Source: Oscillospiraceae bacterium (GTDB lineage Bacteria > Bacillota > Clostridia > Oscillospirales > Ruminococcaceae). From it: 64,000 bases of DNA. Of this stretch, positions 14,823 to 33,262 are shown piece after piece. How positions within the stretch are numbered: the stretch's first letter is position 1; every line of letters begins with the position of its first letter. The DNA lies in the NCBI GenBank assembly GCA_017472965.1, contig JAFUNR010000008.1, forward strand, positions 26,017 to 90,016, read 5' to 3'. The notes below the pieces were generated by a model that searched no databases, was not told the DNA's origin, and saw only the letters and a program-made list of their open reading frames with translations. Made by a program: the position numbers and the translations under genes.

Positions 14823-15194
14823 ATGAAGCAGATTCTGAGTAATTCCATAAGAGAAGATTCAGATGCGGACGGTTTTTTGTTTTCTTTGAACTGCACCGAA
14901 TGCGGAAAGAACTGGCACAGCACGCCCATTCATTTCTCCAAGGCGGGGATCGAGCCGAAAAGTGAATTCAAGGAAACGATCTACCGCACCTTGTACAGGC
15001 GCGAACAGCAGCGTGCACGGGAACAGGCGGTCGCAGAGGCTGCGCATTATTTCAACCGCTGCCCTCTGTGCGGCAGACTGATTTGCAATGACTGCTTTCT
15101 GGTCTGTGATGATCTGGATATGTGCCGCAGCTGTGCAGAAGAACTGCATGAAACAGGAGAGCCGGCCTCATTTGCCGGTTGGGCAAGGGATTGA
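14823..15194 (+). CDS. Small zinc-knuckle protein, function unknown
   Basis: This 123-residue cytoplasmic protein has four CxxC pairs: CTEC near residue 24, then CPLC, CNDC and CRSC in the C-terminal half, all spaced for zinc binding. The central HSTPIHFSKAGIEPKSE and YRTLYRREQQ stretches look conserved and helical. The ATG at 14823 is preceded by AAAGGAGG at the right distance, so an earlier in-frame ATG is not used. It opens the long operon that follows box copy 2 and is immediately upstream of the YdjG-like gene. No catalytic motif is visible; a binding or adaptor role is plausible. Confidence 0.75.
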   Translation: MKQILSNSIREDSDADGFLFSLNCTECGKNWHSTPIHFSKAGIEPKSEFKETIYRTLYRREQQRAREQAVAEAAHYFNRCPLCGRLICNDCFLVCDDLDMCRSCAEELHETGEPASFAGWARD

Positions 15195-15245
15195 ACAGGC
15201 GAATCAAATGATGAAGCATAAAATAATTTAAGGAGGCGGTGTCTT

Positions 15246-16352
15246 ATGGCAACAGGCGCGACCAACTACCAGTGTCCGGCGTGTACTGCTCCGCTGCATT
15301 TTTCGGCGGCAAGCGGCAAGCTGGAATGTGACTATTGCGGCGGTATTTACGAAGTAGAACAGATCGAACAGATGTATGCGGCAAAAGATGCTGCTGCAGC
15401 TGCCGCACAGGAAACCATTGACAGGAAAAAGGCGGAACAGGCTGCTGAGATGCAGGCCATGGGGCTTGAATGGAGCGGCGAAGAAAGCGCGGGGATGAAA
15501 ACGTACAGCTGTCCTTCCTGTCGGGCCGAGCTGATCTGCGATGCCACCACAGCGGCGACCAGCTGCCCCTACTGCGGCAACAATACCATTATTCCCGGGC
15601 AGTTTTCCGGCGGCCTGAGGCCGGATCTCGTCATTCCGTTCAAGCTGGATAAAGAGGCGGCAAAAACGGCGCTGAAGAACTTTTATAAGGGAAAGAAATT
15701 CCTGCCCGGAGCATTTACCAAACAGAATCATATCGAGGAAATCAAAGGCGTCTATGTGCCGTTCTGGCTGTGCGACTGCACAGTGGAGGGTACTGCCCGC
15801 TATGCTGCCGAGCGAAGCCTCACCTACGATGTGGGAGATGAGCGTATCACCGAAACGGATCATTTCGAGGTGCTGCGCGAGGGCTGGCTGAAAATGGAGA
15901 AGATCCCGGCGGATGCTTCTACAAAAATGCCGGATGAATATATGGATGCCATCGAGCCCTACGATTATGCGGAACTGAAAGAGTTTTCTCCGGCCTATCT
16001 GCCCGGGTTTCTGGCAGATAAGTACGATGTGCCGCAGCAGGAGAGTATGACCCGTATCGAAGCGCGTGCCAAAACCAGCATCGGCAATGCATTTTATGGC
16101 TCAGCCTCAGGCTTTGATTCCATTGCGCCGGAGGAGGAGGATTACCGCCTGACCGACCCTGTTATGCGGTATGCACTGCTGCCGGTTTGGCTGCTCAGTA
16201 CCCGCTGGAACAAGAAAAGCTATCTCTTTGCCATGAATGGCCAGACCGGAAAGCTGGTGGGCGATCTGCCTGTCAGCAAGGGCAAATACTGGGCATGGTT
16301 TGCAGGGATCGCCGCATCGGTGACAGCATTGCTGCTGCTTGTGCTGCTTTGA
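15246..16352 (+). CDS. YdjG-like double zinc-ribbon membrane protein
   Basis: This 368-residue protein has two zinc ribbons (Cys10/13 with 28/31, and a second set near residues 89-111), an Ala-rich charged helix between them, a conserved domain with VYVPFWLCDC, and a single C-terminal membrane segment (about 350-367). This architecture matches Bacillus subtilis YdjG, which with YdjH and YdjI forms a membrane complex tied to envelope stress and to the PspA homologue YdjF. It starts with AAGGAGG 8 bases upstream. YdjH- and YdjI-like genes lie in the same operon; no PspA homologue is seen in the window. Confidence 0.8.
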   Translation: MATGATNYQCPACTAPLHFSAASGKLECDYCGGIYEVEQIEQMYAAKDAAAAAAQETIDRKKAEQAAEMQAMGLEWSGEESAGMKTYSCPSCRAELICDATTAATSCPYCGNNTIIPGQFSGGLRPDLVIPFKLDKEAAKTALKNFYKGKKFLPGAFTKQNHIEEIKGVYVPFWLCDCTVEGTARYAAERSLTYDVGDERITETDHFEVLREGWLKMEKIPADASTKMPDEYMDAIEPYDYAELKEFSPAYLPGFLADKYDVPQQESMTRIEARAKTSIGNAFYGSASGFDSIAPEEEDYRLTDPVMRYALLPVWLLSTRWNKKSYLFAMNGQTGKLVGDLPVSKGKYWAWFAGIAASVTALLLLVLL

Positions 16353-16371
16353 TGCAAAGGAGGCGACGGAT

Positions 16372-17166
16372 ATGAATAAAAGAGTATTTGCATTTCTGAC
16401 AGCACTCATTTTGCTGCTTGCGCTTTGCGTTCCTGTTTTTGCCGCACCGGAGGATGCAGCATTCAATGCAATGGTGCTGGATACTGCCGAGGTGCTTCCC
16501 GCGCAGCAGGAGGAGGAATTGAATCAGCGGGCATGGAATCTGACCGAGAGGTACGGCTGTGCCGTGTACATGATCACCGTTCCCGGTCTGGAGGGCATGG
16601 AAGCATGGGAATTCAGCGAATATCTGTTTGACGGTTTCGGTCTGGGATACGGCGAGGAAAACAGCTGCATTATTCTGCTGCTCTCCATGGAGTACCGTGA
16701 TTATGATATCATGGCCCACGGCTACGGCAACACCGCATTTACCGATTACGGTAAAGAGGTCATGGCGGAACGTTTCCTGCCGGATTTCGGCGACGATGAC
16801 TGGTACGGCGGCTTTGAGGAATATCTGGATTGCTGCGAGGAGTTCCTGCAGCTGGCAGAAGAGGGGACACCCTTTGATGTGGACAGCGAGGATCATACCG
16901 GCGGTGCGGTACTCATCAGCGTGGCGGTCGGTCTGCTTGCCGCATTTATCACCTGTGCGGTATTCAAGGGACAGATGAAAACGGCGCGTATCCAGCAAAG
17001 AGCCGATACTTACATTTCGCCCGAAGGCCTGATCCTGACCGGCCAGGCAGAGAATTTCCTGTACAAATCCCGCAGCGTGCGGCATATCGAACAGGATGAC
17101 GACAGTGACCGCGGCGGCACTACCGTCAACCGGCACGGCTCTTCGCACAGCAGCGGAAAGTTCTGA
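16372..17166 (+). CDS. YdjH-like TPM-domain protein
   Basis: This 264-residue protein has a signal peptide (residues 1-24, ending VFAAPE), a TPM domain (about 36-150, with VLPAQQEEELNQRA, a YGCAVYMITV strand and a GYGNTAF segment), a membrane segment near 180-200, and a cytoplasmic tail ending in Ser-His-Ser-Ser-Gly-Lys-Phe. TPM proteins (YgcG, YdjH, plant TLP18.3) are membrane-anchored with the domain outside. AAAGGAGG lies 8 bases before ATG 16372. Together with the YdjG-like gene just upstream it rebuilds the YdjG-YdjH pair. Confidence 0.82.
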   Translation: MNKRVFAFLTALILLLALCVPVFAAPEDAAFNAMVLDTAEVLPAQQEEELNQRAWNLTERYGCAVYMITVPGLEGMEAWEFSEYLFDGFGLGYGEENSCIILLLSMEYRDYDIMAHGYGNTAFTDYGKEVMAERFLPDFGDDDWYGGFEEYLDCCEEFLQLAEEGTPFDVDSEDHTGGAVLISVAVGLLAAFITCAVFKGQMKTARIQQRADTYISPEGLILTGQAENFLYKSRSVRHIEQDDDSDRGGTTVNRHGSSHSSGKF

Positions 17167-17189
17167 TGTGTGCCGAAGGAGGATGGATG

Positions 17190-18404
17190 ATGAAAAAGAA
17201 TATTCTGTTCCGGGCATTGGTATTGCTGCTGGCGGTGTGTCTGGCGGCGGCACTTACGGGCTGCGGGGCACTGAATGCCTATGTGGAGATCAGCAATGCG
17301 CTGGAAGCCATGAATGAGACAGATGATCCCGAAAGCAGCACGGATGCGCCGCAGAGCAGCTCCAAACCGACAGATGAGAATGATCCGCAGAGCAGCTCCA
17401 AACCGGCAGATGAGAATGATCCGCAGAGCAGTTTTCAGCCGGAAAGTGACTCGACCGGCGATCCGCAGCAGACACCGGGGGATAATGAGTTTCTTATTAC
17501 GGCAGAGGACTCTCTGGAAGAACTGCGGATGATCATGCAGGATTCCGACTATCTGGCTGCCATCGCGTTTATCGGCTATATCGAGGGCCCGATGGGCGAC
17601 GGCTACGGCGAGCTTTTCCGGCAGAACGGGTATTCGTTCTGGTATCCGTTCGTTGAGGAGATCCCCTACGACCGGCTGGTGGAAACGGACGGCTGGGAGA
17701 TGTACTGCATTGTTCCGCGGGATGAGGATGCCTCCGTGGCGGTCAATCAGTGGCTGATGCGGGAGTACGGCGGGCAGGTGAACGGATCCACCGGCAATGT
17801 GCTGTACCGCAGCGAAAGCGGCGAGCCCATCCTGCTGCTGTGCAACATCGATGCAACGGTGCCCAATACGGATGTCACCGTGACCGCGCCGGACGGCTCG
17901 TGGGTGAATTTCCACCCCTCCGTCACGTCCTATTCCGACGGAACAATCCGGGTGAATACATCGGTCGAGCTGCTGGATTTCACGGTTCCGATTGTGTGGA
18001 GTACCGGCGAACAGCTTGCTTTTGAGCAGCTGCAGGGCAGCTGGACCTGCTGGGACGCCCTGACACCGGCTGGGGACCCGCTTGTCTGCAGCCTCACCTT
18101 CTATCAGGAGGACGGCGCCGACCGCGTGGCTTACGGATACGGCGTGCCGGAAAGCGAATTCTATGAATTCTTTACCGGTGTCTGTTATGAATCGGATCAG
18201 GACCCCAGTGTGACGCTGTTTGAAATGGAACTGACCGGCGGCGTTGCACTGGAGGATATCGAGCCCTATGAGTTCCGCGGCGCCTACCGCATAGAGGCCT
18301 CGCAGGACAGTGCCGATGCCATCATTGTTACGCACATGGATGGCACGCCGCTGGTATACGGCTGCGAGGGCGGCAGTTTCACCTTCTATCGCGGCAACGG
18401 TTGA
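17190..18404 (+). CDS. Lipoprotein with Asp/Pro/Ser tandem repeats, function unknown
   Basis: This 404-residue protein has a lipoprotein signal (LTGC, Cys25) and then a low-complexity spacer rich in Ser, Pro, Gln and Asp encoded by tandem 36-bp repeats. A roughly 280-residue extracellular domain without a recognised family follows. The domain has a late segment with the order GSWTCWD, then Gly-Tyr-Gly and FRGAYRI, perhaps a lipocalin-like or beta-sandwich fold (weak guess). Two ATG codons lie side by side; the one at 17190 has the better distance from AAGGAGG. It is part of the long operon between the TPM gene and two nucleotidase paralogues. Confidence 0.7.
   Translation: MKKNILFRALVLLLAVCLAAALTGCGALNAYVEISNALEAMNETDDPESSTDAPQSSSKPTDENDPQSSSKPADENDPQSSFQPESDSTGDPQQTPGDNEFLITAEDSLEELRMIMQDSDYLAAIAFIGYIEGPMGDGYGELFRQNGYSFWYPFVEEIPYDRLVETDGWEMYCIVPRDEDASVAVNQWLMREYGGQVNGSTGNVLYRSESGEPILLLCNIDATVPNTDVTVTAPDGSWVNFHPSVTSYSDGTIRVNTSVELLDFTVPIVWSTGEQLAFEQLQGSWTCWDALTPAGDPLVCSLTFYQEDGADRVAYGYGVPESEFYEFFTGVCYESDQDPSVTLFEMELTGGVALEDIEPYEFRGAYRIEASQDSADAIIVTHMDGTPLVYGCEGGSFTFYRGNG
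17349..17432 (+). repeat. 36-bp tandem coding repeat
   Basis: Two full 12-codon units (Pro-Gln-Ser-Ser-Ser-Lys-Pro-x-Asp-Glu-Asn-Asp) and a partial third sit in the spacer of the lipoprotein. Units differ by one base. Copy number could vary between strains. Confidence 0.85.
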
Positions 18405-18428: not shown

Positions 18429-19895
18429 ATGAGTAATCTGAAAAAGCTGACGATCCTGCACTCCAACGATATGCACGGAGATTTTCTGGCACAGAAGACG
18501 GATGACAGGCTTCTGGGCGGTGTGTCCATGCTCTCCGGCTACATTCAAAAGGTGCGCAGGGAAGAGGAAAATGTGCTGTATACCGTCTCCGGCGATATGT
18601 TCCGCGGCTCGGTGATCGACAGCGAATATAAAGGTCTTTCCACCATCGAGATCATGAACCTGCTGGCACCGGATGTGGTGACACTGGGAAATCACGAGGT
18701 GGATTACGGTGTGGCGCACCTGCTTTTCCTTGAAAAGTGCGCCCGCTTCCCCATCATCAATGCCAACCTGTACCTGACCACCAACATGGTCCGGCTGTTC
18801 AAAAGCCATCACATCGTGAATATCGGCGGGATGAAGGTGATGTTCATCGGTATCCTCACCGAGGAGGTACTGGCGCAGGCGCGGCAGGAGCGGCTGATCG
18901 GCAGCTTTGTGGATATCCGCGAAGCGGCAGTCGAGGTGGGCAAGATCTGCAATGCCTACCGCAGCGATGATGTGGATTTCACCGTGCTGCTCACACACAT
19001 CGGCTTTGAGGAGGATAAAAAGCTGGCGGAGCTGCTGGATCCCGACTGGGGCGTGGATGTCATCATCGGCGGACACAGCCACACCCTGCTGACCGAGCCC
19101 TGTGTGGTAAAGGGGATCCCCATCGTGCAGGCTGTCACCGGTACCGATCAGATCGGCCGGTTTGATATCGTGGTGGATACCGACACCAACTCCATCCACA
19201 GCGCCGAATGGCAGCTGATCCCCATCGACAGCGATCACTGCCCGCGGGATAAGGCTCTGGAAGATCTGATCGGTCAGTATACCGCAGCTACCGATGAGAA
19301 ATACGGCCGGTACATCACCCGCTTTGCGGATACATACACCCATCCCGCACGCAATCAGGAAACCGAGCTTGGCAGGCTGTTTGCGGATATTTTCCGGGAC
19401 AGTCTGGGCGTGGATGTGATGTTTGTACCCTCCGGCGGCATCCGGGGCACGGCAATGGGTCCCATCGTCCTGCTGCGGGATCTCACCCAGATATTCCCCT
19501 ATAACGATGCGGTTTACCGCCTGACGGTGACCGGTGCGCAGCTGAAGCGCATGGTGGAATATCTGTTCCGGCCCGAGGCGCTGGAAGGTGCGCACACCGA
19601 GTTTTACCAGTTCTCCAGCGGTATGCGGGTGGTGGTGTCGCTCGGCGAAAAGCGTGTGACGGAGCTGACCTTTGAGGGAAAACCCATCGATGATGACCGT
19701 CTGTTCAAGATTGGTCTGCAGAGCTATCATTACAAAAATATGCAGGAATTCTTTGGCGTTGCCGAGGACGAGGTGGCTGCAAATGCAAAGATCAAGGTGC
19801 TGGCAACCAACGCTACCGATGTGCTGGATGAAAACCTCAGCCGTATGGAGCTGGTAAAGTGCCCGTCCGACCTGCGCTGGATCACCCTGCCGTAA
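18429..19895 (+). CDS. 5'-nucleotidase/UshA-family metallophosphatase, paralogue 2
   Basis: This 488-residue protein has the same two domains as the gene at 12602: HSNDMHGDF, GDMF, GNHEVDYG and GGHSH for the dinuclear metal centre, then PSGGIRG and FPYNDAVYR in the nucleotidase C-terminal domain. It again begins directly at the first beta strand with no signal peptide. It is followed after 30 bases by paralogue 3, making a tandem pair. Differences cluster in the C-terminal domain (PSGGIRG rather than GSGSIRG, and a different helix after it), which suggests changed substrate choice. GAGGAACGATC precedes the ATG. Confidence 0.85.
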   Translation: MSNLKKLTILHSNDMHGDFLAQKTDDRLLGGVSMLSGYIQKVRREEENVLYTVSGDMFRGSVIDSEYKGLSTIEIMNLLAPDVVTLGNHEVDYGVAHLLFLEKCARFPIINANLYLTTNMVRLFKSHHIVNIGGMKVMFIGILTEEVLAQARQERLIGSFVDIREAAVEVGKICNAYRSDDVDFTVLLTHIGFEEDKKLAELLDPDWGVDVIIGGHSHTLLTEPCVVKGIPIVQAVTGTDQIGRFDIVVDTDTNSIHSAEWQLIPIDSDHCPRDKALEDLIGQYTAATDEKYGRYITRFADTYTHPARNQETELGRLFADIFRDSLGVDVMFVPSGGIRGTAMGPIVLLRDLTQIFPYNDAVYRLTVTGAQLKRMVEYLFRPEALEGAHTEFYQFSSGMRVVVSLGEKRVTELTFEGKPIDDDRLFKIGLQSYHYKNMQEFFGVAEDEVAANAKIKVLATNATDVLDENLSRMELVKCPSDLRWITLP

Positions 19896-19925: not shown

Positions 19926-21386
19926 ATGAAAAACTTAAAGAAGCTGACGATTCTGCACTCAAACGATCTCCACGGCGATTTCATGGCGAAGGAAGTGGAT
20001 CAGGAGCTGATGGGCGGCATCTCCATGCTGTCCGGCTATATCGATAAGGTGCGGCGCGAGGAGCCGAATGTGCTGTACGCCATCTCCGGCGATATGTTCC
20101 GGGGCTCTCTGATCGACAGCGAATACAAAGGCCTTTCCACCATCGAGATCATGAATCTTCTGTCGCCGGATGTGGTGACGCTGGGCAATCACGAGGTGGA
20201 TTACGGCGTGGCACACCTGCTGTTTATTGAAAAATGTGCCACATTCCCCATCATCAACGCCAATATGTATCTGACCACCAATCATGTGCGTCTGTTCAAA
20301 TCGCATATCATCCTCAATGTGGATGGAATGAAGATCCTGTTCATCGGCATTCTCACCGAGGATGTGCTTGCCTCCACACGGCAGGATCGTCTTATCGGCA
20401 GCTTTGTGGATGTGCACGAAGCCGCGACGGAGGTGGGCAAGATCTGCAACACCTACCGCACCGAGGATATCGATTTCACTGTGCTGCTGACCCACATCGG
20501 CTTCGAAGCGGACAAGGAACTGGCGAAAGCGCTGGATCCCCGCTGGGGCGTGGATGTCATCATCGGCGGACACAGCCACACCCTGCTGACCGAGCCCTGC
20601 GTGGTGGAAAATATCCCCATCGTGCAGGCCGCCTACGGCACCTCGCAGATCGGCCGCTTTGATATCACGGTGGATACCGATACCAATGCCATCGACAGCT
20701 ATACATGGCAGCTGGTTCCCATTGATGACGATCACTGTCCCCGCGATACCGAGCTGGAGGAGGTTATCCTGAAATACAAGGCGCAGACCGATTCCAAATA
20801 CGGGCGTATCGTCACCCGGTTTGCTGACCGGTACACGCATCCGGAGCGCAATCAGGAGACCCAGCTGGGCAAGCTGTTTGCCGATGCCTTCAAGGATGTG
20901 CTGAATGTGGATCTGGTGTTTCTGGGTTCCGGCAGTATCCGCGGCGAAGAGCTGGGCCCTATCGTTCAGTATCAGGATCTGCTGCAGATATTCCCGTATA
21001 ACGATGAGATCTACCGTGTTGATGTGACCGGCGAGCAGCTGCGCCGCATGGTAAAGCATATTCTGCGGGAAGAAGCCTTTTCCGGACACACAGAGTTCTA
21101 TCAGTTCTCCCGCGGGTTCCGCATCGAATATGACCGGGCGGCAAAGGAGCTCATCAGTCTGTCCTTCAACGGTTACGAGATCAGGGATTTCGACCGCTTC
21201 ACGCTGGCGCTGCAGGCTTTCCATCTGCGCAACATCAAGGAGTTCATGGATGTGACGGAGGAGGAGGTCTCGGCGATGCGCAAGCCGAAGGTGCTCTCCA
21301 CCAGCTGTACGGATATTCTGGAAGAGTACTTCAGCGGGCAGGAGCGCATCCGTGTGTCGGATGAAAAACGGCTGGTGATCCGCTGA
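19926..21386 (+). CDS. 5'-nucleotidase/UshA-family metallophosphatase, paralogue 3
   Basis: This 486-residue cytoplasmic member of the metallophosphatase/5'-nucleotidase family has HSNDLHGDF, GDMF, GNHEVDYG and GGHSH, then GSGSIRG and FPYNDEIYR. It resembles paralogue 1 more than paralogue 2 in the C-terminal domain (a FYQFSRGFRIEYD stretch, then LSFNGYE). AAAGGAG lies 8 bases before ATG 19926; a GTG nine bases earlier sits inside the ribosome site and is not a credible start. Three close copies within 9 kb, all without export signals, are unusual for this family. Confidence 0.85.
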   Translation: MKNLKKLTILHSNDLHGDFMAKEVDQELMGGISMLSGYIDKVRREEPNVLYAISGDMFRGSLIDSEYKGLSTIEIMNLLSPDVVTLGNHEVDYGVAHLLFIEKCATFPIINANMYLTTNHVRLFKSHIILNVDGMKILFIGILTEDVLASTRQDRLIGSFVDVHEAATEVGKICNTYRTEDIDFTVLLTHIGFEADKELAKALDPRWGVDVIIGGHSHTLLTEPCVVENIPIVQAAYGTSQIGRFDITVDTDTNAIDSYTWQLVPIDDDHCPRDTELEEVILKYKAQTDSKYGRIVTRFADRYTHPERNQETQLGKLFADAFKDVLNVDLVFLGSGSIRGEELGPIVQYQDLLQIFPYNDEIYRVDVTGEQLRRMVKHILREEAFSGHTEFYQFSRGFRIEYDRAAKELISLSFNGYEIRDFDRFTLALQAFHLRNIKEFMDVTEEEVSAMRKPKVLSTSCTDILEEYFSGQERIRVSDEKRLVIR

Positions 21387-21454: not shown

Positions 21455-22045
21455 ATGGGACTGTTTGATGTATTGAAGAAAAAGGCTGCCGCGGCGGTGA
21501 ATAACGGTACAGCAGCAACCGGGATCCGCAGCGCCCTGCAGAATGCCGGAAATAAATCGGTGGATGTGGTTTTTGCCGAGGTGCCTTCCACCTATGAAGG
21601 CTTTACGGCGCTGCCGCAGGCGGCCATGAGCACACCGTTTGATACAGCGGCGATGACGGTCGTGGCGCTGTGCGCATGGCCCCTGGATGCGGAGCTTTCC
21701 ATCCGTATGCTGAATTATCTGCGTGGGCCGCGTCCGCTGAGCAACATGGATATCAGCTTTATCCGCGATCGTTTCTATGATAAGGATTACGTGCCCCGTT
21801 CCTATTTCAACGGCTCTGTGCCGGGCAACGATTATACGCCGCAGGAGCCTTACACGATCACGGTCAGCGATAATCCTTATAGCTACCAGAACGAAAGCTA
21901 TGCCACACTGTACATTCGCTCCGGCGGTGCGGATAACCCCCGTCAGGTACAGCTGCGTCAGGCAAAGGACGGCAAATGGTACCTGTGGGATCAGTTCCTG
22001 CTGCCGGATATCCGCAAGCCGGAAAGTGAAAATCCCTGGGCATGA
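21455..22045 (+). CDS. Conserved hypothetical protein (DUF6935-like)
   Basis: This 196-residue soluble protein starts MGLFDVLKKK. Its core contains LCAWPLDAELSIRMLNYL, a GPRPLS turn, the FIRDRF and YVPRSYFNG segments, then NDYTPQEPYTITV and LYIRSGGAD, and it ends near DIRKPESENPWA. I recognise this as a conserved Firmicute family, I believe DUF6935, without known function. It has AAGGAGG 7 bases before the ATG. Its place before the YdjI-like gene suggests it works with that complex. Confidence 0.7.
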   Translation: MGLFDVLKKKAAAAVNNGTAATGIRSALQNAGNKSVDVVFAEVPSTYEGFTALPQAAMSTPFDTAAMTVVALCAWPLDAELSIRMLNYLRGPRPLSNMDISFIRDRFYDKDYVPRSYFNGSVPGNDYTPQEPYTITVSDNPYSYQNESYATLYIRSGGADNPRQVQLRQAKDGKWYLWDQFLLPDIRKPESENPWA

Positions 22046-24131: not shown

Positions 24132-24141
24132 TGACAGCAAG

Positions 24142-24177
24142 CAAAACAGCCGGGCAAACAGGCGCGGCTGTTTTGCA
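24142..24177 (+). terminator. Intra-operon hairpin, possible partial terminator
   Basis: A perfect 11-bp stem, GCAAAACAGCC with GGCTGTTTTGC, encloses a 14-base loop. The T run is only four long and within the stem, so it may reduce rather than end transcription, or protect the upstream mRNA. Confidence 0.45.
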
Positions 24178-24202
24178 AACTGCTTTCAGAGGAGGTTTGA
24201 TT

Positions 24203-25015: not shown

Positions 25016-25077
25016 TTTTCGCCGGAAGGACGGGTGTGAATGATCCTGGCAAAACAGGAAAAGTGAGGATGTTACAG

Positions 25078-27444
25078 ATGAAAAAGGTACTTTGTATCCT
25101 GTTGTGCTGTTTATTTACTGTCGGCCTGCTACCAGTGACGGCCCACGCCGCCGAAGTGACGGGCACAAGCGATGGTTGGGCATATTGCGGCGGCACATTT
25201 GATATGCGGGCGACCATCAGCGAGGGCGCTGACCGGGCGACTTATCAGTGGCAGGTGGATGCCTCTTTCGGTGACGGCAGCTGGTACGATCTGGATGAAA
25301 GTACAGGCATATACGGATATCACGGTACCAAAACGGATAATCTGCAGTTTGCAACGCCGCCGCAGGATAATACCTATGAGTATGGCACCGGATGGGAGGA
25401 TATCCCTTTCCGATGCAAGGTCACACTGGATGGCAGCACCTATTACACGCAGCCCATGTATATGAATTTTGAAAGCTATGCTTCGTTCAAGGGGGCTGTG
25501 TCAAATGCCGGTTACGGTTTGAAAGAGCCGGTGATCTCCGGCGTGCAGAGCCTTTCGGGCAGCGGAAAGCAGTATACCGGAACTGTCAGTGCGGGGCAGG
25601 AGCTGTGGATCTCCGCCGATTGCGTTCCGGTGACCAATGCGGTAATGATGACCTCCGAGCTGATATTCACACCGGAGATCTGGATCACGGAAAATGGGAA
25701 AACGACTCACTCCGGGCGGACAATACGCTACACGCCTTCAAAAGTCGGCAGCGAGGTGAAAATCGAGATCAGGCTGCCGATGAAGCTGGGTGTCAATGAC
25801 ATGGGCTGCTATGATACGAAGTCTGTCACCTTTACCGTGCAAGAGCCGAAATCCGTCGGGACGGGAACCGTCAAGCAGGAAGGCTCTCTGCTGAAAAATA
25901 TGTATAACGAAGCGGAGAAGCTCATCCGTGTTCCCAAAGGCTCTGCTGTTTCGGTCGTGGAGGAAATGGGAAGCTGGTATAAAGTCTCTTACGGCGGATA
26001 TGTGGGATATGTGCCTTCGACTTCTGTCACGCTGAGCAAGCCGCTGATCCAGCAGACAGTCAGCGAGGTTTCTGTTTCCATAGCGGATCCGGCCATCGGA
26101 GATGCCCCGCAATACAATCCTCCCGTAAACACAGAGGGCTGTGAGCTGTATCTTATTGAGCCGGTATCGTGGATCGACAATGAAACAAACCGGTTCATGA
26201 AGCCGGGTGAAAAATTTCAGGAGGGGCATAGCTATACCGTACAGATCTGGGTGGCAGCCAAAGAGGGCTATGAATTCCCGGTGGATGCCTACGGAAACAT
26301 TCAGGTGAAGGGCAATATCGGCACATATAAGGCATCCGTCGGAAAAGCCTATGAGCAGGATCCCTCCCGTGTGATCAGTCTTTCCTATAAATACGGTGCA
26401 CTTGTGAAGATCCACACCTGCAAGGTCTCACTGGTGAAACAGGTGGAGCCGACCTGTCAGAAGCCCGGACGGAAAGCCTATTTCCGCTGCGAATGCGGTA
26501 TGTGCTATGCGGATGCCCGCGCCACGCAGGTGATCGACGGTAACTCATGGGGCGTTATGCCGGCCGTCGACCACAAGCCGGAAACGGTCTGGAAGTATAA
26601 CGGCACCCACCACTATAAAAAGTGTGTCTGGTGTCAGCAGGTCTGTGCAAAAACGACAGAAAAGCATTCCGGCGGAAGCGCGACCTGTATGGAAAAAGCG
26701 AAATGCTCCGTCTGCGGTGCTCTGTACGGCGAGACCGGTGAAAAGCACCGCTGGGAAAAAGAGTTTACTTACAAAACTGCCGACGGTCATGCTGCGGTCT
26801 GTGCGGATTGCAAGGTGCACGGCGAACTGAAAAAACATACGCCCGGCAGCGCAGCGACGGAAACCCAGCCGCAGCTGTGCAGGGATTGCGGCTATGTGCT
26901 TGCTCCGGCGAAAAACCATGTGCATCAGCTGACAAGGGTGGAGAAAACACCTGCAACCTGTACACATCCGGGCAATATCGAATATTATACCTGTTCCGGC
27001 TGTTCGCAGTTGTTTGAAGATGCGGCGGGCAAAAAGAGCCTGCCGGCAGATACCGATGTAACAGTTCCCTGTACAGGACACACTGCTGCCGATGGGTGGC
27101 AGACGGACGAGGAGCTCCACTGGCGTCTTTGTGATGTCTGCGGCGAAGTGCTGGAGGAGACCAGAATGTTCCATGAATTCGAAGAGGGCGAATGCAGCAC
27201 CTGCGGTATCGCGGCAGCAGTGTCAGGCGACGAAGGAAGCGAACAAGGCAAAGATAAGCCGCAGCTGACACCGGAGGAAATTCTTGATCCGGAGCAAAGA
27301 AATGAAAGCGGCGGGGGAAGCCTCTCGCCGGCCGGAGCGTCTTCGTTTAAAGTCATCGCGCTGACAGTGGTCTGTTCGGCAGCGATCGCAGCACTTGTTA
27401 CGGCTCTGATCATCGATAAAAAGAAAAGCGGCAGTAAGAAATAA
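25078..27444 (+). CDS. Secreted, membrane-anchored SH3/Cys-repeat surface protein
   Basis: This 788-residue protein has a signal peptide (1-24, ending AHA), an Ig-like or beta-rich N-terminal region (25-260), and an SH3b domain (about 271-320, GSAVSVVEEMGSWYKVSYG and GYVGYVP). A Cys/His-rich region follows (447-711) with repeated HTC/CxxCG knuckles of the kind seen in many Clostridial surface proteins. A C-terminal membrane segment (756-781) is followed by KKKSGSKK. The GAGG at 25065 points to ATG 25078 and not 25069. It should be displayed outside the cell, C-terminus in the cytoplasm. Ligand unknown; SH3b domains often bind peptidoglycan. Confidence 0.75.
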   Translation: MKKVLCILLCCLFTVGLLPVTAHAAEVTGTSDGWAYCGGTFDMRATISEGADRATYQWQVDASFGDGSWYDLDESTGIYGYHGTKTDNLQFATPPQDNTYEYGTGWEDIPFRCKVTLDGSTYYTQPMYMNFESYASFKGAVSNAGYGLKEPVISGVQSLSGSGKQYTGTVSAGQELWISADCVPVTNAVMMTSELIFTPEIWITENGKTTHSGRTIRYTPSKVGSEVKIEIRLPMKLGVNDMGCYDTKSVTFTVQEPKSVGTGTVKQEGSLLKNMYNEAEKLIRVPKGSAVSVVEEMGSWYKVSYGGYVGYVPSTSVTLSKPLIQQTVSEVSVSIADPAIGDAPQYNPPVNTEGCELYLIEPVSWIDNETNRFMKPGEKFQEGHSYTVQIWVAAKEGYEFPVDAYGNIQVKGNIGTYKASVGKAYEQDPSRVISLSYKYGALVKIHTCKVSLVKQVEPTCQKPGRKAYFRCECGMCYADARATQVIDGNSWGVMPAVDHKPETVWKYNGTHHYKKCVWCQQVCAKTTEKHSGGSATCMEKAKCSVCGALYGETGEKHRWEKEFTYKTADGHAAVCADCKVHGELKKHTPGSAATETQPQLCRDCGYVLAPAKNHVHQLTRVEKTPATCTHPGNIEYYTCSGCSQLFEDAAGKKSLPADTDVTVPCTGHTAADGWQTDEELHWRLCDVCGEVLEETRMFHEFEEGECSTCGIAAAVSGDEGSEQGKDKPQLTPEEILDPEQRNESGGGSLSPAGASSFKVIALTVVCSAAIAALVTALIIDKKKSGSKK

Positions 27445-27495: not shown

Positions 27496-28119
27496 ATGCC
27501 ATATTGTGAAAATTGCGGCGCACAGATCAGTGAAAGCGCCAAATTCTGTACCGAGTGCGGCACGCCGCTGCAGCGCACCGTATTGAAAACGGAGCCTGCT
27601 GAAGCGGTGGAGCAGCAGCCGGTCGTCGAGGTAAAAATACCGGAGATGAAACCTGTCGAACAGCCGGTCGCCGAGGTAAAAATACCGGAGATGAAACCTG
27701 TCGAACAGCCGGTCATTCTGCCTGTACAGGAGCCTGCGGCATCTTCGACCGAACCGGCAATTGTACAAACGCCATCCGCTGAAAAAGAGGACAAACCCCG
27801 CAAGGGGATGGCAGTTCTGGCATATCTTGGTCTGCTGGTGGTCATCCCGCTGCTGTTTGCGCGCAGGAATTCCTTTGCGCGGTTTCATACCAATCAGGGT
27901 CTTGTGCTGTATCTTCTTACGCTGGTTTGCAACTGCATCAGCGAGCTGCTGATGGGCACGCTTGTGGAATTCAGCCCGGTTCTTGCCATTGCGGTGTATG
28001 CCGTTCTTGGCCTTGCTTCAGTTCTTCTGCTTGTGCTGGACATTATAGGCTTGTTCGGCGCACTCGGCGGAAAAACAAAACCGCTGCCGTTGATCAGCGC
28101 AATTCGGTTTTTGAAATGA
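27496..28119 (+). CDS. Zinc-ribbon membrane protein (DUF4870-like C-terminus)
   Basis: This 207-residue protein has an N-terminal zinc ribbon (Cys4, 7, 18, 21), a Pro/Val/Glu-rich spacer made of tandem 15-residue units, and about three membrane segments from residue 110. The NSFARFHTNQGLVLYL stretch is typical of small Tic20/DUF4870-like membrane proteins. The zinc ribbon should face the cytoplasm. AAGGAGG lies 8 bases before the ATG. It fits the module theme of ribbon plus membrane anchor. Confidence 0.75.
   Translation: MPYCENCGAQISESAKFCTECGTPLQRTVLKTEPAEAVEQQPVVEVKIPEMKPVEQPVAEVKIPEMKPVEQPVILPVQEPAASSTEPAIVQTPSAEKEDKPRKGMAVLAYLGLLVVIPLLFARRNSFARFHTNQGLVLYLLTLVCNCISELLMGTLVEFSPVLAIAVYAVLGLASVLLLVLDIIGLFGALGGKTKPLPLISAIRFLK
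27616..27714 (+). repeat. 45-bp tandem coding repeat
   Basis: Two 15-codon units (Gln-Pro-Val-x-Glu-Val-Lys-Ile-Pro-Glu-Met-Lys-Pro-Val-Glu) and a 9-base partial third in the zinc-ribbon membrane protein spacer; the units are almost identical. Confidence 0.85.
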
Positions 28120-28129
28120 CCCTTTGCGG

Positions 28130-28159
28130 CCGCTGCACATCCGGAACGGTGTGCAGCGG
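28130..28159 (+). other. Intra-operon hairpin without T run
   Basis: A perfect 10-bp stem, CCGCTGCACA with TGTGCAGCGG, around 10 bases, lies between two module genes. There is no T run, so an mRNA-stability role is more likely than termination. Confidence 0.45.
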
Positions 28160-28214
28160 TATACAGTGCGCTGTGAATTTGGCAAAAAATATCCGGTAGG
28201 GGAGGAAATTGACC

Positions 28215-29495
28215 GTGAAAAGAAGGATCGGCAGTGTTTTGCTTTTTGTATTTGCGCTGGTTTGTCTGACAGGAATATCCGCAGCGGCGGCAGAAGCGGA
28301 ACCTTATATCATTGTTCAGCCATCCAGTCCGGAATATCCGGAAAACGCCGTTGCCATTTATACCTGTGAGGCATTTGGCACAAATCTGACCTTTGACTGG
28401 TATCTGGTTTACGAAGGGACAACTTACCGTCTGGCTGATGCGGATGGCAGCCAGCCATGGGCGGCGCATACGGTCAACAGCGGAACCAATGCCACAGCCA
28501 CAGCCGGCACCTGCTTCTTTGAAGGAATTCTGCCGGGGCTCGACGGTGCGGAGCTGTACTGCGTGGTGGAAGACGGACATTATTCCGTGCGCAGCATGAG
28601 CGCTGTGATCCGTGTGGGCGGCTCAGCCATGCCGCCGCAGCTGCGGGTAGTGGGCAGTATGGAGATCTATCAGAACGAACTTTGTGATCTGTACTGCAGC
28701 GTGGAAACAGATGGAAGCAAAACATACTCCTATTTGTGGTATCAGTCCGGTACGGGCCGTCTGCAGGATATCATTGCCGTTGACCGCGGTGCGCAGACAA
28801 CGGATACGCTTCATATCGATACCTCTGTGCCCGGTCTTACTTATTATGCCTGTCTTGTGACGGATTCTGCCGGCGGCAGTGCATACAGTGCGATCATACC
28901 GGTGCTTGTCATGGAAAAACCGCCCGTGCCGCAGATTCTGACGCAGACTTTGCCGGAAGCAACGGTTGGCGAAAGCTATTATGTTCAGCTGGAAAGCACA
29001 GTTGAGGATATGCAGTTTTATGAATACTATGCACCGGGCCAGTACGACCGCCTGGAAAAAGCCGGCCTTACGATGAACTCTGAAGGAGAGATCTCCGGTG
29101 TGCCCCAAAAAGCCGGAGAGTATTCCATCATCATCTGCGCCGGCAATGTCTCCGGCGAGGTGAGTATGGGGTATACGCTGACGGTAAAGGATCCTGCAGA
29201 AAAAGAGCCGGTAAGTTCTTCTGCTGCTTCCGGCGTAACTTCTGCATCTTCCGGAAAAGAGGACTCCGCCAGCCGCAAGCCGGAGCTGAAGCCTGCGGGC
29301 ACCGGCTCTGCTTCGGAAAGCACCCCGGAAAGCAAACCGCAGAGCACACCGCAGAGCAGCGGAGAGGACAAAACGGAGGAAAAGGAACCTGTCAGCGAAA
29401 AGCGCGGGATGCCCTGGTGGGGCATTCTGCTGACTGCAATGGGTGCGGCAGGTGCCGGTGCGGCCGCTGTGCTGCTTGTGAAGAAGAGAAAATAA
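28215..29495 (+). CDS. Secreted, membrane-anchored Ig-like surface protein
   Basis: This 426-residue protein has a signal peptide (1-24), two Ig-like beta-sandwich domains (about 30-130 and 135-235, with CEAFGTNLTFDWYL and YLWYQSG), and a putative-Ig (He_PIG) domain (236-327, ending in GEISGVPQKAGEYSIIICA). A Ser/Glu/Pro-rich stalk (328-395) and a C-terminal membrane anchor with a KKRK tail follow. GGGGAGG points to the GTG start at 28215 rather than the TTG six bases earlier. It is an adhesin-like or sensor-like surface protein in the same operon. Confidence 0.72.
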   Translation: MKRRIGSVLLFVFALVCLTGISAAAAEAEPYIIVQPSSPEYPENAVAIYTCEAFGTNLTFDWYLVYEGTTYRLADADGSQPWAAHTVNSGTNATATAGTCFFEGILPGLDGAELYCVVEDGHYSVRSMSAVIRVGGSAMPPQLRVVGSMEIYQNELCDLYCSVETDGSKTYSYLWYQSGTGRLQDIIAVDRGAQTTDTLHIDTSVPGLTYYACLVTDSAGGSAYSAIIPVLVMEKPPVPQILTQTLPEATVGESYYVQLESTVEDMQFYEYYAPGQYDRLEKAGLTMNSEGEISGVPQKAGEYSIIICAGNVSGEVSMGYTLTVKDPAEKEPVSSSAASGVTSASSGKEDSASRKPELKPAGTGSASESTPESKPQSTPQSSGEDKTEEKEPVSEKRGMPWWGILLTAMGAAGAGAAAVLLVKKRK

Positions 29496-29532: not shown

Positions 29533-30867
29533 ATGTCATTCCAAAACGGTGAATTTCATGAGGAAAGCTTTCACGGTAACGAATACCTGCAGGATGCACC
29601 GGAAGATTTTTCCCAGATGCAGGAAGAATTTATCTGTATGGAGGAATGCGAAGCGTATGGCGAGCAGTTTATCCACGAAGATGAATTCAACCATGATTTT
29701 GAATGCGGATTAAAAGAGACTGACGCGGAGGAAGCGGCAGAGCTTACTGAAGAAGAGCAGGGAACCGCAGCCGGACGGAAAAGACGAAGGATTCCCCTGC
29801 AGAAAATGAAAAAAGTGCTGCGGATCGGGGCGGCAGCGGCTGCTGCAGCAGTTGCGGCGGCGCCGCTCGGGATGCTCGGCGCAGGATTCGCCGGTGCGGT
29901 GCAGACCGCTTTGCATCAGGATCTGGATATTCACAACGCTGCCGCTGAATGGACAGTGTCTGAACGCGCCACCTGCCATAACTGCGGCATACAGGTGCTG
30001 CTTTGCAGGGATTGCGGAACAGCTCTTGCCGAGCGTGAAACAGAGCAGCTGATGCACGCCCCCGGTGCGTGGATGGTATTGGAAGAGCCGGACTGCATAC
30101 ATGAAGGCAGGGAACAGCAGCTATGTACAATGTGTCTGGAGCAGCTGGCTGTCCGGAGCATTCCTGCGGCAGATCACCGTGCGGGCGATTGGCTTGTGGA
30201 CCGTCAGGCCACCTGCTATGAAAGCGGTGAACGCCATACAGAGTGTGTCTTCTGTGGTTGTGTGCTTGCGCAGGAGACGGTCACAGCTGCTCACACAGAG
30301 AGAGTCGTAGCGGCTGTGCCCGCAACCTGTGTTGCCGATGGTCTGACGGAAGGTATTGTTTGCTCTGTGTGTGATACGGTGCTGAAAGAACAGAGCGTTC
30401 TGACGGCGACGGGACACACCGTGGTGACGGATGCTGCGGTAGCGGCGAGCTGCTATAACACAGGCCTGACGGAGGGCAGTCACTGTAGTGTGTGCGGGGA
30501 TGTTCTGCAGGCGCAGACGGTCATTCCGTTCGCGCACCGGCCGGAGACGATCGCCGCGGTGGAGGCGGATTGCTGGAACACAGGTCTGACACAGGGCAGC
30601 TACTGTTCGCTCTGTCAGACCGTACTGATAGAGCAGCAGGTCACACCGATCAGGCACAGCAATATTATTGTGCGGCCTTATGAAGCGCCTACATGCGATA
30701 TGTTCGGTATTACCGAGGGGCAGTTCTGCGGCATATGTCAGGCGACGATTCTGGAACCGATCCAGATCCCGCCTGTCGGGCATAACTGGGTGCGGGATGA
30801 GAGTGTGGCGACGCATGAATCTTATATTTGTACCTATTGTCAGGCCACCACGACCACACCGTACTGA
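29533..30867 (+). CDS. Type II membrane protein with six CxxC-His repeats
   Basis: This 444-residue protein has an acidic cytoplasmic N-terminus (1-80), a basic patch (GRKRRR, 81-86), one Ala-rich membrane segment (97-122), and then about six repeats of roughly 45 residues. Each repeat has an HxxG-type His, ATC, a GLTEG turn and a CSVC/CxxC knuckle. The repeats resemble the Cys-rich surface repeats in Clostridial wall proteins and the 25078 product. Orientation rules put the repeats outside. GAAGGTG is the ribosome site. Whether the Cys pairs bind metal or form disulphides is unclear. Confidence 0.7.
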   Translation: MSFQNGEFHEESFHGNEYLQDAPEDFSQMQEEFICMEECEAYGEQFIHEDEFNHDFECGLKETDAEEAAELTEEEQGTAAGRKRRRIPLQKMKKVLRIGAAAAAAAVAAAPLGMLGAGFAGAVQTALHQDLDIHNAAAEWTVSERATCHNCGIQVLLCRDCGTALAERETEQLMHAPGAWMVLEEPDCIHEGREQQLCTMCLEQLAVRSIPAADHRAGDWLVDRQATCYESGERHTECVFCGCVLAQETVTAAHTERVVAAVPATCVADGLTEGIVCSVCDTVLKEQSVLTATGHTVVTDAAVAASCYNTGLTEGSHCSVCGDVLQAQTVIPFAHRPETIAAVEADCWNTGLTQGSYCSLCQTVLIEQQVTPIRHSNIIVRPYEAPTCDMFGITEGQFCGICQATILEPIQIPPVGHNWVRDESVATHESYICTYCQATTTTPY

Positions 30868-30891: not shown

Positions 30892-31851
30892 ATGAAAAAG
30901 AATACAATACAGGCAAACAACGCCGGAAAAAAGGATGAGGGAAGAAAGAACTCAGGTGTTTTACGGTTTGTGATTTCGCTGATCCTGCTGGCGGGGATCG
31001 CGGCACTGTTTGTTCCGGCGCTGCAGAATTATTTGCCGGAAGGCATCAGACAGACTGTTCAGAACTTTATTGACGGGCACTTTGCGGGTACTGTTTTTGC
31101 GGCAATTACAGTTGAAATGCTGCTTTCTGCGTTGCTGACGCTGGCAGCAACATGGTTTGCGGGCAATGTGGCAAAATTTATTGTTACGCATATCCGTTAC
31201 AAAAAGCGCCGTACCGAAACACTGCATCAGCTTGTAAGCAGACTGTTCATTTATGTAATCTATATTGTGGGCGGTGTCATTGCCCTTGGATGTCTGGGGG
31301 TCGATACCACGGCGATATTTGTTTCGGTCGGCATTGTGGGGATCATTGTCGGCTTCAGTGCGCAGTCCCTGATCGAAGATCTGATCACCGGTATGTTTAT
31401 TGTACTGGAAGGGGAATTTGCAGTCGGGGATATCATAGCGGTGGATGGCTTCCGCGGCGAGGTGAAATCCATCGGCCTGCGCACGGTGAGCATTATCGAT
31501 CCGGGCGGAAATATCCGCATTATCAACAATAGCGAGATCGGCTCGCTGGTCAATCTTTCTGAAGTGTCGTCCGCAGCTGTGGTGAATATCCCGATCAGCT
31601 ATGATGCGGAGCTGAAGATTGCCGAGGCTGCTGTACGGGAGGCTCTGTCGGAGTTGCCGGCGGAATATCCCGATATTTTCCGAAAAGCGCCCGTTTATAA
31701 GGGTGTGGACAAGCTGACAGAGACTCATATGGAGCTGATGGTCGTGGCGGAGGTTGCAGAAAAGGATATCTACAACGCACGCAGGATCATGCACGGCGAG
31801 ATCCGGTACTCCTGTGAAAAAGCGGGCCTGGGCACACCGGCTCCGGGCTGA
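30892..31851 (+). CDS. MscS-family mechanosensitive ion channel
   Basis: This 319-residue protein has an N-terminal basic tail, three to four membrane helices (about 27-160), and the MscS pore and beta domain: GIVGIIVGFSAQSLIEDLI (pore helix TM3, Gly/Ala-rich), then EGEFAVGDIIAVDGFRGEV and NPNNS-like RIINNSEIG. MscS channels release osmolytes at high membrane tension. The ATG at 30892 has AAAGGAG 9 bases upstream. As part of the envelope operon it supports a role in membrane stress. Confidence 0.85.
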   Translation: MKKNTIQANNAGKKDEGRKNSGVLRFVISLILLAGIAALFVPALQNYLPEGIRQTVQNFIDGHFAGTVFAAITVEMLLSALLTLAATWFAGNVAKFIVTHIRYKKRRTETLHQLVSRLFIYVIYIVGGVIALGCLGVDTTAIFVSVGIVGIIVGFSAQSLIEDLITGMFIVLEGEFAVGDIIAVDGFRGEVKSIGLRTVSIIDPGGNIRIINNSEIGSLVNLSEVSSAAVVNIPISYDAELKIAEAAVREALSELPAEYPDIFRKAPVYKGVDKLTETHMELMVVAEVAEKDIYNARRIMHGEIRYSCEKAGLGTPAPG

Positions 31852-31877
31852 TTCCGACAAAGAGGAGGGGAGAAGCG

Positions 31878-32585
31878 TTGCCGAACGAAAGAGCGGAACA
31901 TTTGCTGCATAGCTGGTCAAGACTGGAGGCTGCGGTCGGGGGTTCGATCGGTACGGAACCGGAAGATGCGGTGCTGCGCTTGTGCTGCGAACCCCGTTTT
32001 GCAGAATTCAGGGAACAGCTCGAATACTGCAGCAGCGTATGTACTTTACTGCGCAGATATGGCAGGATCAGCGATGAATATGCGCTTTGTCCCAGCGATT
32101 CAATGCTTGATTTGTTGGATACCGTACTGCACCGGTTGGAAAAGCCTGAAACGGTGCTGGATGTAATGACACCGCTGAGCGGGCTGCTTGTGGCGGACGA
32201 GGATACGAATGTTCTCGCCACGATGGATCATATGAAGGCGCGGGGCCTCAGCCACATTCCGCTGCTGCGGCAGCAGTGCGTGACCAGCGTTTTCAGCGTG
32301 GAGACTGTTTTTCAGGCGGTATTGGATGGCAGGATCACGGTCGGCAGCAAAACGGTCATGCGGGATCTCTGTGAGTATCTGCCGCTGGAAAAGCACATGA
32401 ATCATGAGTATTGCTTTGTGGATGAAAGGACAGATCTGCTTACCGCAGCGGATATCTTTGAAAAAGGCCATACCCGTATCCGCAAACTGAAACTGCTGCT
32501 GGTAACGGTGGATGGGAATCCCGGATCGCCTTTGAAAGGTGTTGTCACACCGTTTGATCTGAAGTGCTGCACCGCACAGAAGTAG
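31878..32585 (+). CDS. CBS-domain protein, function unknown
   Basis: This 235-residue soluble protein has a helical N-terminal third (1-95) and a CBS pair from about residue 96, with VMTPLSGLLVADEDTNV, a GLSHIPLL turn, and a second repeat ending in GVVTPFDLK. CBS pairs often bind adenosine nucleotides. With three nucleotidase-family enzymes in the same module, nucleotide sensing is an attractive but unproved link. The TTG start is preceded by GAGGAGGGGAG. Confidence 0.7.
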   Translation: MPNERAEHLLHSWSRLEAAVGGSIGTEPEDAVLRLCCEPRFAEFREQLEYCSSVCTLLRRYGRISDEYALCPSDSMLDLLDTVLHRLEKPETVLDVMTPLSGLLVADEDTNVLATMDHMKARGLSHIPLLRQQCVTSVFSVETVFQAVLDGRITVGSKTVMRDLCEYLPLEKHMNHEYCFVDERTDLLTAADIFEKGHTRIRKLKLLLVTVDGNPGSPLKGVVTPFDLKCCTAQK

Positions 32586-32639
32586 CCGGCTGCAGGACCT
32601 GTTACTGCAGCAGTATAGGTTATCTTGAGAAAAAGAAAA

Positions 32640-32705
32640 CTCCATGCTGCAGCTTGCGACTGTTCGGCTTGATCATCGCAGACTGCTGCATGGAGAATTT
32701 TATTT
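32640..32705 (+). terminator. Possible terminator or attenuator after the CBS gene
   Basis: CTCCATGC and GCATGGAG pair, extended by GCAG/CTGC across a T-T mismatch, with a 30-base loop and a following ATTTTATTT tail. The long loop makes it weaker than the others. Confidence 0.4.
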
Positions 32706-32734
32706 ATAAGAGACAGGTCAGAGAAAGGGGCAGT

Positions 32735-33262
32735 ATGAAACCTGAAAGCAGAAAAAACAGCGGCAGAAAGGAGAAGTGCAGGGTGTACTGGGTGATTTTG
32801 GGGTTTGCTGCAGCGATAGCTGTTCCGGTTTTGCTTTTGGCCGGCAGCAGAACGAAGGTGGTCGGCAGAAATATCGCTTTGCAGGATATCACAGAGTTTG
32901 TTTATACAGCAGCAGCTTCTTCCTATCCGCCGGATTATCAGAGATACCGTTTTTACAAATCGGAAGGAAACCATTTGTTTTATCATGAAACACGGAAAGG
33001 GACCCATTGGCCGCTGACGGAAAATGATATCACTGTCTCCGGAACAGTGGTACTGACACAGCAGGAGTGGTCGGCTTTTCTGCAATGTCTGCAGGGCGGA
33101 ACGGTGGAAAAGGTAACGGAAAACACCGAATCGGGAGATTCCGGCCCTTGGTTGTACCTGTATTGGAATGAGGAACGGTACAGCTATTCCTTTGTATCCT
33201 ACAGCGAACGCATTGCCTTTGAGGCTCTTTGCACAGAGCTTGCAGCCGGTAAAGACAAATGA
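32735..33262 (+). CDS. Small single-pass membrane protein, function unknown
   Basis: This 175-residue protein has a basic N-terminus with Arg and Lys clusters, one membrane segment (about residues 24-42, with WVILGFAAAIAVPVLLLAG), and a roughly 130-residue external domain. The domain shows no recognised family but resembles the small lipoproteins of the module in having a final helix with CxE and an Ala-rich end. The ATG at 32735 has AAAGGGG 6 bases upstream. A strong terminator follows, ending the module. Confidence 0.6.
   Translation: MKPESRKNSGRKEKCRVYWVILGFAAAIAVPVLLLAGSRTKVVGRNIALQDITEFVYTAAASSYPPDYQRYRFYKSEGNHLFYHETRKGTHWPLTENDITVSGTVVLTQQEWSAFLQCLQGGTVEKVTENTESGDSGPWLYLYWNEERYSYSFVSYSERIAFEALCTELAAGKDK

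Follow-up and report, generated by a model that had tools for sequence, protein, structure and literature searches.

Positions 9563-33262 of a 64,000-nucleotide stretch of the Oscillospiraceae bacterium assembly GCA_017472965.1 (contig JAFUNR010000008.1, positions 26,017 to 90,016; this whole stretch is called the window below) can be read as a regulon, made up of a regulator gene and two operons, for a PspA-independent SPFH scaffold on the inner face of the membrane, most likely acting in envelope stress. We assign this reading a probability of roughly 0.58. An initial annotation, made from the letters alone, had picked out a 17-gene run (14823-33262, plus strand) as an enlarged YdjGHI-like module and an envelope-sensing or scaffold system. 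Such a system is still the best reading, with function suggested by analogy, and the run itself is real, but the unit appears to be larger: it is reasonably supported that a regulator gene (9563-10657) and an operon at 10937-14589 also belong to it. Published accounts of YdjGHI, in the portions available, tie the scaffold to PspA, whereas the SPFH clade described here is separate, common in gut Clostridia and mostly PspA-free. The linked regulator and operator-like sites make up a defined, testable regulon, and the module gives a context to DUF4428 and DUF6935.

Gene neighbourhoods were compared around the best 80 of at least 591 confirmed SPFH relatives, that is, the closest ones (the 80 named loci), with a further 31 loci from the order and 40 from the class; one contig is present in two sets (L084 and L183). 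Twelve families derived from the window were scored by hidden Markov model (HMM) around SPFH relatives, and the window's own score of 12/12 is therefore by construction. Because many contigs are short, family counts per locus are lower bounds. Pfam labels were judged by curated cut-offs.

A ydjGHI-like core with an SPFH protein of a separate clade

Three genes form the YdjGHI-like core proposed by the initial annotation. The g2 product (15246..16352, plus strand, as are all 17 genes) has CxxC motifs at 10, 28, 89 and 107 and a transmembrane (TM) segment at 350-368. The YdjG family is not available in Pfam; we call the protein YdjG-like because it combines two zinc ribbons with a C-terminal TM segment, and because a profile of g2 and its relatives matches (298 bits) the protein at the YdjG position in L162, a PspA-linked cluster. 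The g3 product (16372..17166) is a YdjH-like membrane protein with a TPM domain (PF04536, E 3.5e-21, 76 bits) and a TM segment at 180-198. The g8 product (22129..23565) is YdjI-like, with an SPFH domain (Band_7_1, PF13421, E 2.5e-14) followed by five CxxC motifs within 376-468. HMM matches to g2 and g3 were found in 53 and 43 of the 80 named loci, respectively.

The layout agrees in several respects with that of pspA-ydjGHI in B. subtilis, as described in the parts of three papers that were available (PMC8581546, PMC9239133, PMC11237479): a YdjG with two zinc ribbons and a TM segment, a TPM membrane protein, an SPFH protein with a C-terminal zinc ribbon, and genes lying close together on one strand. 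It differs in that PspA was not found, in that the SPFH protein belongs to a separate clade and has several zinc ribbons and a conserved tail, and in its 14 further genes, with DUF4428, DUF6935 and LIM partners.

The first of these differences had already been suspected, no pspA gene being visible in the run. Indeed, the PspA profile (PF04012) had no match anywhere in the window's genome, its contig included, while it matched in 9 of 14 control genomes; since the genome is 85% complete, absence is likely rather than proven. Of 61 genomes from the order, the window's among them, 10 had PspA over its cut-off. Among the 28 of the 61 with a strong SPFH match (>180 bits), PspA was present in six, never on the SPFH contig, and 22 had none over the cut-off. 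It was no commoner with SPFH than without it (6/28 versus 4/33, p 0.49). In a class sample of 118 genomes, Band_7_1 (both tree clades) occurred in 58, PspA in 15 and both in 10, and the two lay within 2 kb of each other in two (G138 and G224). The PspA profile matched 3 of 152 SPFH stretches, namely L162 and L163 (from G138 and G224) and L073; among the named loci the count was 1/80.

In a midpoint-rooted tree of 79 SPFH proteins, with 14 of its 76 inner forks open, the window's protein falls within a group of 58, parted by a branch of 1.66 with support of 100/100 from 21 others that include the PspA-linked L162 and L163. These two served as stand-ins for YdjI, since B. subtilis YdjI itself was outside the tree sample. 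A quick tree of the YdjG proteins set the second group apart likewise, except for L043, a first-group row that fell among them. Since its clade is distinct, has full support and seldom shows a PspA neighbour, the g8 protein is probably not an orthologue of the PspA-linked YdjI, and we judge ordinary YdjGHI orthology unlikely from the SPFH tree; the initial call of a YdjI homologue, taken to mean the PspA-linked type, probably does not hold.

The same results bear on the proposal that this is simply a Bacillus-type pspA-ydjGHI operon that lost pspA and gained neighbours. We regard this as unlikely. The three core domains are the same, the YdjG and TPM layouts fit the published description so far as its available parts go, and L073, on the window's side of the SPFH tree, has PspA as a neighbour within such a cluster. 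However, the fully supported split of the SPFH tree, the parallel split of the YdjG proteins with its sole exception, and the 22 of 28 SPFH genomes with no PspA over the cut-off all argue otherwise. Given these 22 genomes and the lack of association, the PspA-free state looks widespread rather than the outcome of a recent loss. It suggests that PspA is not the sole client of the scaffold, and since the separate clade occurs mostly without PspA, the scaffold can probably work alone.

Two observations on this clade may be recorded here. The PspA of L073 (L073:6883-7773), in a LIM-YdjG-TPM-DUF6935-SPFH cluster of Candidatus Faecousia, ends in a zinc-ribbon tail like that of the adjoining SPFH protein; this fusion was seen in 1 of 80 genomes searched (G067). 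Close SPFH relatives also occur in metagenome-assembled genomes labelled Treponema or Spirochaetaceae (L090, L105, L130 and L136), with YdjG and TPM adjoining SPFH in L090, L130 and L136, which suggests either transfer between phyla or mislabelling.

A linked 7-TM LuxR-type regulator and two operator-like sites

The regulator gene (9563..10657, minus strand) encodes a HisKA_7TM region (E 1.4e-12) and a LuxR-type GerE domain (E 1.2e-13) in one chain, with no kinase domain matched, and would thus be a one-component regulator. Both domains are shared with HisKA_7TM sensors and LuxR regulators; unlike those, the window's protein has the 7-TM region fused directly to the LuxR helix-turn-helix (HTH) and is linked to an SPFH module, an arrangement for which no paper was found in the open-licence PubMed Central (PMC) literature. 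In B. subtilis, by contrast, the available parts of the published accounts give a sigma-W promoter. In 18 module-rich genomes, picked with some already known to hold the regulator, there were 21 matches, and it is the low copy number that is informative (1-3 per genome in 16 of 18). A match adjoins module genes in 12 of the 18. In G062 and G067 it covers the HTH part only, and in G064 it lies beside a second module locus.

At 10937-14589, beside the regulator gene, lies a plus-strand operon encoding a lipoprotein with DUF3298 (10937..12544; E 6.4e-9; lipobox LTGC; PdaC match below cut-off), a cytosolic 5'-nucleotidase (12602..14089) and a small membrane-anchored protein with an N-terminal TM segment and no Pfam family (14086..14589). 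An operator-like site lies upstream of this operon (site 1, 10825..10856, plus strand) and another upstream of g1 (site 2, 14728..14759, plus strand; GTATTTC-N14-GAAATAC). When 48 bases of the g1 promoter were compared with both strands of the 64-kb window, the best match was the DUF3298 promoter (36/48), the next best reaching 30. The two site regions share 42 of 60 bases, and both carry half-sites of the type GTATTT-N16/17-AATAC.

Over 2.65 Mb of sequence from 223 stretches, the site-derived pattern occurred at five places: the two in the window, one upstream of the LIM gene in L073, one likewise in L158, and one in L099. Simulated sets had 1, 1, 0, 1 and 3 such places. The L099 site is inside a gene, looks like chance and was set aside. 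L068 has a variant with changed spacing upstream of its LIM gene. Compared with the window's regulator, those of L073 and L068 have HTH identities of 69% and 70%, respectively. The regulators of L086, L091, L093 and L098 have 27-30% HTH identity, and there a different palindrome was found, ATTACCC or ATCACCC with GGGTAAT. Long hairpins also lie upstream of the LIM gene at L087:9444-9607, L071:4170-4347 and L096:4109-4310; these are perhaps terminators or another type of operator.

Recurrence of the extended gene set

Besides the core, the 17-gene run includes several genes whose families recur around SPFH relatives. These are g1 (14823..15194), a LIM-like small zinc protein with eight Cys invariant in nine aligned relatives; g4 (17190..18404), a lipoprotein (lipobox LTGC) for whose family an alignment was made; the cytosolic 5'-nucleotidases g5 (18429..19895) and g6 (19926..21386); g7 (21455..22045), with DUF6935 (PF22043, E 1.5e-57); g9 (23592..24131), a lipoprotein (lipobox FAGC); g10 (24203..25015), with DUF4428 (PF14471, E 2.3e-16); g14 (29533..30867), with an Ala-rich hydrophobic segment noted by eye, then Cys/His repeats, and nine CxxC; and g15 (30892..31851), an MscS-type channel by domain (PF00924, E 2.8e-14), with an MS_channel beta domain and three TM segments. 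In the 80 named loci, DUF4428 was matched in 25, DUF6935 in 18, the g4 lipoprotein in 13, LIM in 11, the nucleotidase in 8 (that of L142 being a distant relative), the regulator in 8, g14 in 7, and g9 and the MscS channel in 5 each.

Scored over the 12 families, L086 and L093 have 11, L091 has 10, L070 and L098 have 9, and 13 other named loci have 5-7. At least five families were thus found in 18 of the 80, and four in 6. The 31 order-level loci hold mostly core genes (27 with 1-3 families, one with none and three with 4-6). Gene order is shuffled between genomes: in L086, L091, L093 and L098, for example, MscS-g14-regulator is divergent from LIM-nucleotidases-SPFH-DUF4428. The g14 gene adjoins MscS in all five named loci having that MscS gene. 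Of the 19 class-sample genomes that have DUF4428, five carry it no more than 5 kb from Band_7_1 (the window included; one below cut-off). DUF6935 occurs in 11 genomes of this sample, of which 10 have Band_7_1 (Fisher p 0.01, uncorrected for kinship), the two being within 5 kb in only two (G000 and G116). Binomial probabilities, which presuppose independent and random positions, are given no weight here.

The gene set as a recurring unit is thus well supported. By sequence comparison, the nucleotidases, MscS with its Cys/His-repeat partner, and the LIM-like, DUF4428, DUF6935 and lipoprotein genes are recurring module parts, while g11, g12, g13, g16 and g17 are probably local additions, because few or none of the 80 named neighbourhoods match them (threshold 45 bits). 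Co-conservation of the run in related genomes, whose absence the initial annotation had named as refuting it, thus holds for much of the set. No description of this gene set was found in the open-licence PMC literature, judged on titles, the starts of abstracts and passages, and DUF6935 was likewise not found there, while DUF4428 occurred in two papers. Against PDB profiles, neither DUF6935 nor the g4 lipoprotein had a match below E 0.09.

All three copies of the nucleotidase in the window's genome are in this region: g5, g6 and the upstream copy at 12602..14089, which has both Pfam domains (Metallophos and 5_nucleotid_C) and is 60-70% identical to the other two. A search of 50 of the 80 genomes gave 24 matches above 500 bits (at least 52% identity); 18 of them adjoin other module genes, and five of the remaining six are on contigs shorter than 10 kb. 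Every one of the 15 copies checked has intact metal-site motifs, and the C-terminal domain is present. UshA and CD73 5'-nucleotidases share both Pfam domains and the metal-site motifs; they differ from the present proteins, which form tandem copies within an envelope cluster and in which no signal peptide was found. We saw no TM segment, lipobox or signal peptide (no dedicated signal-peptide predictor was run), and the nucleotidases are therefore probably cytosolic. A surface role was set aside for want of a secretion signal.

An alternative account of the region is an accretion island, in which only SPFH, YdjG and TPM function as a unit and the remaining genes are nearby by chance or shared mobility. 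The five rare or unmatched genes and the varying gene order would fit such an island. Against it, LIM, DUF4428, DUF6935, nucleotidase, g4, regulator and g14-MscS recur by the core in several genomes, in differing order; genome-wide, most close nucleotidase matches and the regulator adjoin module genes; and an operator-like sequence is common to two promoters. We therefore consider it distinctly improbable. An anti-phage or conflict module, pairing a membrane SPFH scaffold with nucleotide-depleting nucleotidases, would account for the duplicated nucleotidases and the membrane proteins and might draw on DUF4428 being predicted at the N-terminus of some SNIPE anti-phage nuclease homologues (PMC13190303, in the part available), but it is very improbable, since a PADLOC comparison of 10 window proteins did not support a defence role (a weak 1TM match to g3, E 0.0043, and regulator matches confined to the HTH), no nuclease, protease or toxin domain exceeded its Pfam cut-off in the 17 products, and the SPFH protein had no close match in plasmid and phage collections (the best, at 51.6%, being a fecal record that lacks annotation).

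Conserved protein ends shared between families

A zinc-ribbon tail of the form CxxCGW-like...FCPxCG ends 114 of 128 distinct strong SPFH proteins. It also closes the PspA of L073, a DUF4428 protein of L099, a 268-residue frame of L254 with no Pfam match, and short proteins that adjoin SPFH in L067 and L070. At the other end, SPFH proteins of the window's kind begin with MG[LIFM][FLIG] in 125 of 128 cases, compared with 8 of 28 for other SPFH proteins. DUF4428 proteins share this start in 30 of 34 cases and DUF6935 proteins in 13 of 25; among 1054 background open reading frames (ORFs), spurious ones included, it was seen in four. The window carries an MGLF-type start in all three families (g7, g8 and g10). 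Within one family such a start would reflect shared ancestry; its presence in three families that are unrelated suggests that they dock in a common way.

It is thus conceivable, though we hold this only tentatively, that the module represents a PspA-independent branch of SPFH scaffolds with its own 7-TM LuxR switch, and that the end tags serve as a portable address by which proteins join the scaffold. The peripheral parts so tagged, with an MGLF-type N-terminus, a C-terminal zinc-ribbon tail or both, would be SPFH, DUF4428, DUF6935 and, in one genome, PspA; we are equally tentative about this list. The zinc-ribbon tail as a genome-wide general tag was considered and rejected: 40 of 100 relatives had matches, nearly all the strong ones on frames of SPFH length. 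Several tail matches on short frames are truncated SPFH proteins. On four contigs of G051 (C15, C114, C44 and C119), 74-75-residue frames corresponding to the SPFH N-terminus and 47-residue frames corresponding to the tail occur separately, two of each. In L070:11709-12470, L086:12259-13017, L091:12318-13088 and L093:12273-13046, the DUF6935 protein has a lipoprotein-like start, while that of the window and others has the MGLF start. DUF6935 proteins of the MGLF kind should be cytosolic, and the same domain may thus occur on both sides of the membrane.

A possible mechanism

SPFH domains of flotillin/HflKC-type scaffolds are expected to oligomerise at the membrane. The g8 protein has this domain in common with them; no TM segment of its own was found, and by analogy with B. 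subtilis it would be expected to be anchored through YdjG and TPM. In that organism, according to the accessible part of PMC8581546, YdjI needs YdjG and YdjH to form membrane foci and to recruit PspA, both YdjI and PspA are brought to the membrane by YdjG and YdjH, and loss of either YdjG or YdjH leaves cells misshapen in alkali stress. Ravi et al. proposed, in the part of their paper available, that TPM and Band-7 proteins aid PspA in assembling membrane complexes (PMC11237479).

A mechanism for the regulon reading can be outlined on this basis. The 7-TM LuxR regulator would sense a change in the membrane and bind paired half-sites about 21 bp apart at the two promoters, switching on both the 17-gene and the lipoprotein-nucleotidase operons. 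The SPFH protein would then oligomerise under the membrane, anchored by YdjG and TPM as in Bacillus. The DUF4428 and DUF6935 proteins, which share the MGLF-type N-terminus with SPFH, might join it, with the zinc-ribbon tails mediating assembly. Finally, the lipoproteins would act outside, MscS and its Cys/His-repeat partner could release tension, and the cytosolic nucleotidases could remove or salvage nucleotides.

Several observations weigh against the regulon reading or parts of it. Of the named loci, 26 have three families and 30 have one or two, although many contigs are short; L086, L091 and L093, among the richest, are near-copies (HTH 95-96%); and the genome of the same genus, G001, has only the core within the 13.5 kb examined. 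The regulator lies elsewhere in 4 of the 18 module-rich genomes and was not found in two. A mismatch search of the window with the site-derived pattern found only sites 1 and 2, with an expectation of 0.00; as the pattern came from these very sites, that figure is not independent. In L071, L087, L096 and L099, with HTH identities of 52-64%, neither pattern was found upstream of the LIM gene. The MGLF termini are not clearly amphipathic, with mean moments of 0.17 for SPFH, 0.21 for DUF4428 and 0.35 for DUF6935 against a background of 0.22.

Layout and boundaries of the 17-gene run

The general description of the run given by the initial annotation was largely confirmed. Its 17 ORFs are separated by 16 gaps of 19-149 bp, and a simple pattern found a ribosome-site core upstream of 14. 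Two or more CxxC motifs occur in seven products (g1, g2, g8, g10, g11, g12 and g14), at least six zinc-knuckle proteins having been counted before. The five lipoproteins or surface-anchored proteins can be recognised as two with a lipobox (g4 and g9) and three with an N-terminal hydrophobic segment and a second TM segment (g3, g11 and g13). The Pfam families found above cut-off were TPM, DUF6935, Band_7_1, DUF4428, two 5'-nucleotidases (g5 and g6, with metal-site motifs), SH3_3, Zn_Ribbon_1, MscS and CBS, so that the nucleotidases and the MscS channel stand as first named.

The peripheral genes are less secure members of the module. The g11 product (25069..27444) is a surface protein with a signal peptide, SH3_3, Cys/His repeats and a C-terminal TM segment, and the g12 product (27496..28119) has a zinc ribbon (Zn_Ribbon_1) and three TM segments; each was matched in 3 of the 80 named loci. 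No match above the threshold was found in these loci for g13 (28209..29495), a surface protein, g16 (31878..32585), a CBS-domain protein (PF00571, E 3.6e-6), or g17 (32735..33262), a single-TM protein. Of the Ig/SH3 surface proteins first described, the SH3_3 domain thus stands, while g13 has a weak Ig match (21.5 bits against a cut-off of 30) and both g11 and g13 are probably local additions. The CBS domain also stands, in a gene that is probably a local addition.

Plus-strand intrinsic terminators are predicted on either side of the run. The one preceding g1 (14606..14655) has -30.0 kcal/mol for the fold of 14600-14665, then TTTTGCTTT; the one after g17 (33266..33314) has a perfect 15-bp stem, then TTTTTTTT (eight T). 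A promoter and terminator scan stayed near chance (18 against 13.1, sd 3.5; 19 against 18.9, sd 4.0) and left out both of these strong terminators, probably owing to a bulge and a long loop. In the 149-bp gap between g16 and g17 (32586-32734), a long strong hairpin is followed by the T-rich AATTTTATTT; it may end transcription, and g17 is therefore perhaps a separate unit. Strong hairpins are also present in the gaps g9/g10 (24132-24202) and g12/g13 (28120-28208). Elsewhere in the window, a T-box leader lies at 51798-52030 (Rfam RF00230, 104.7 bits).

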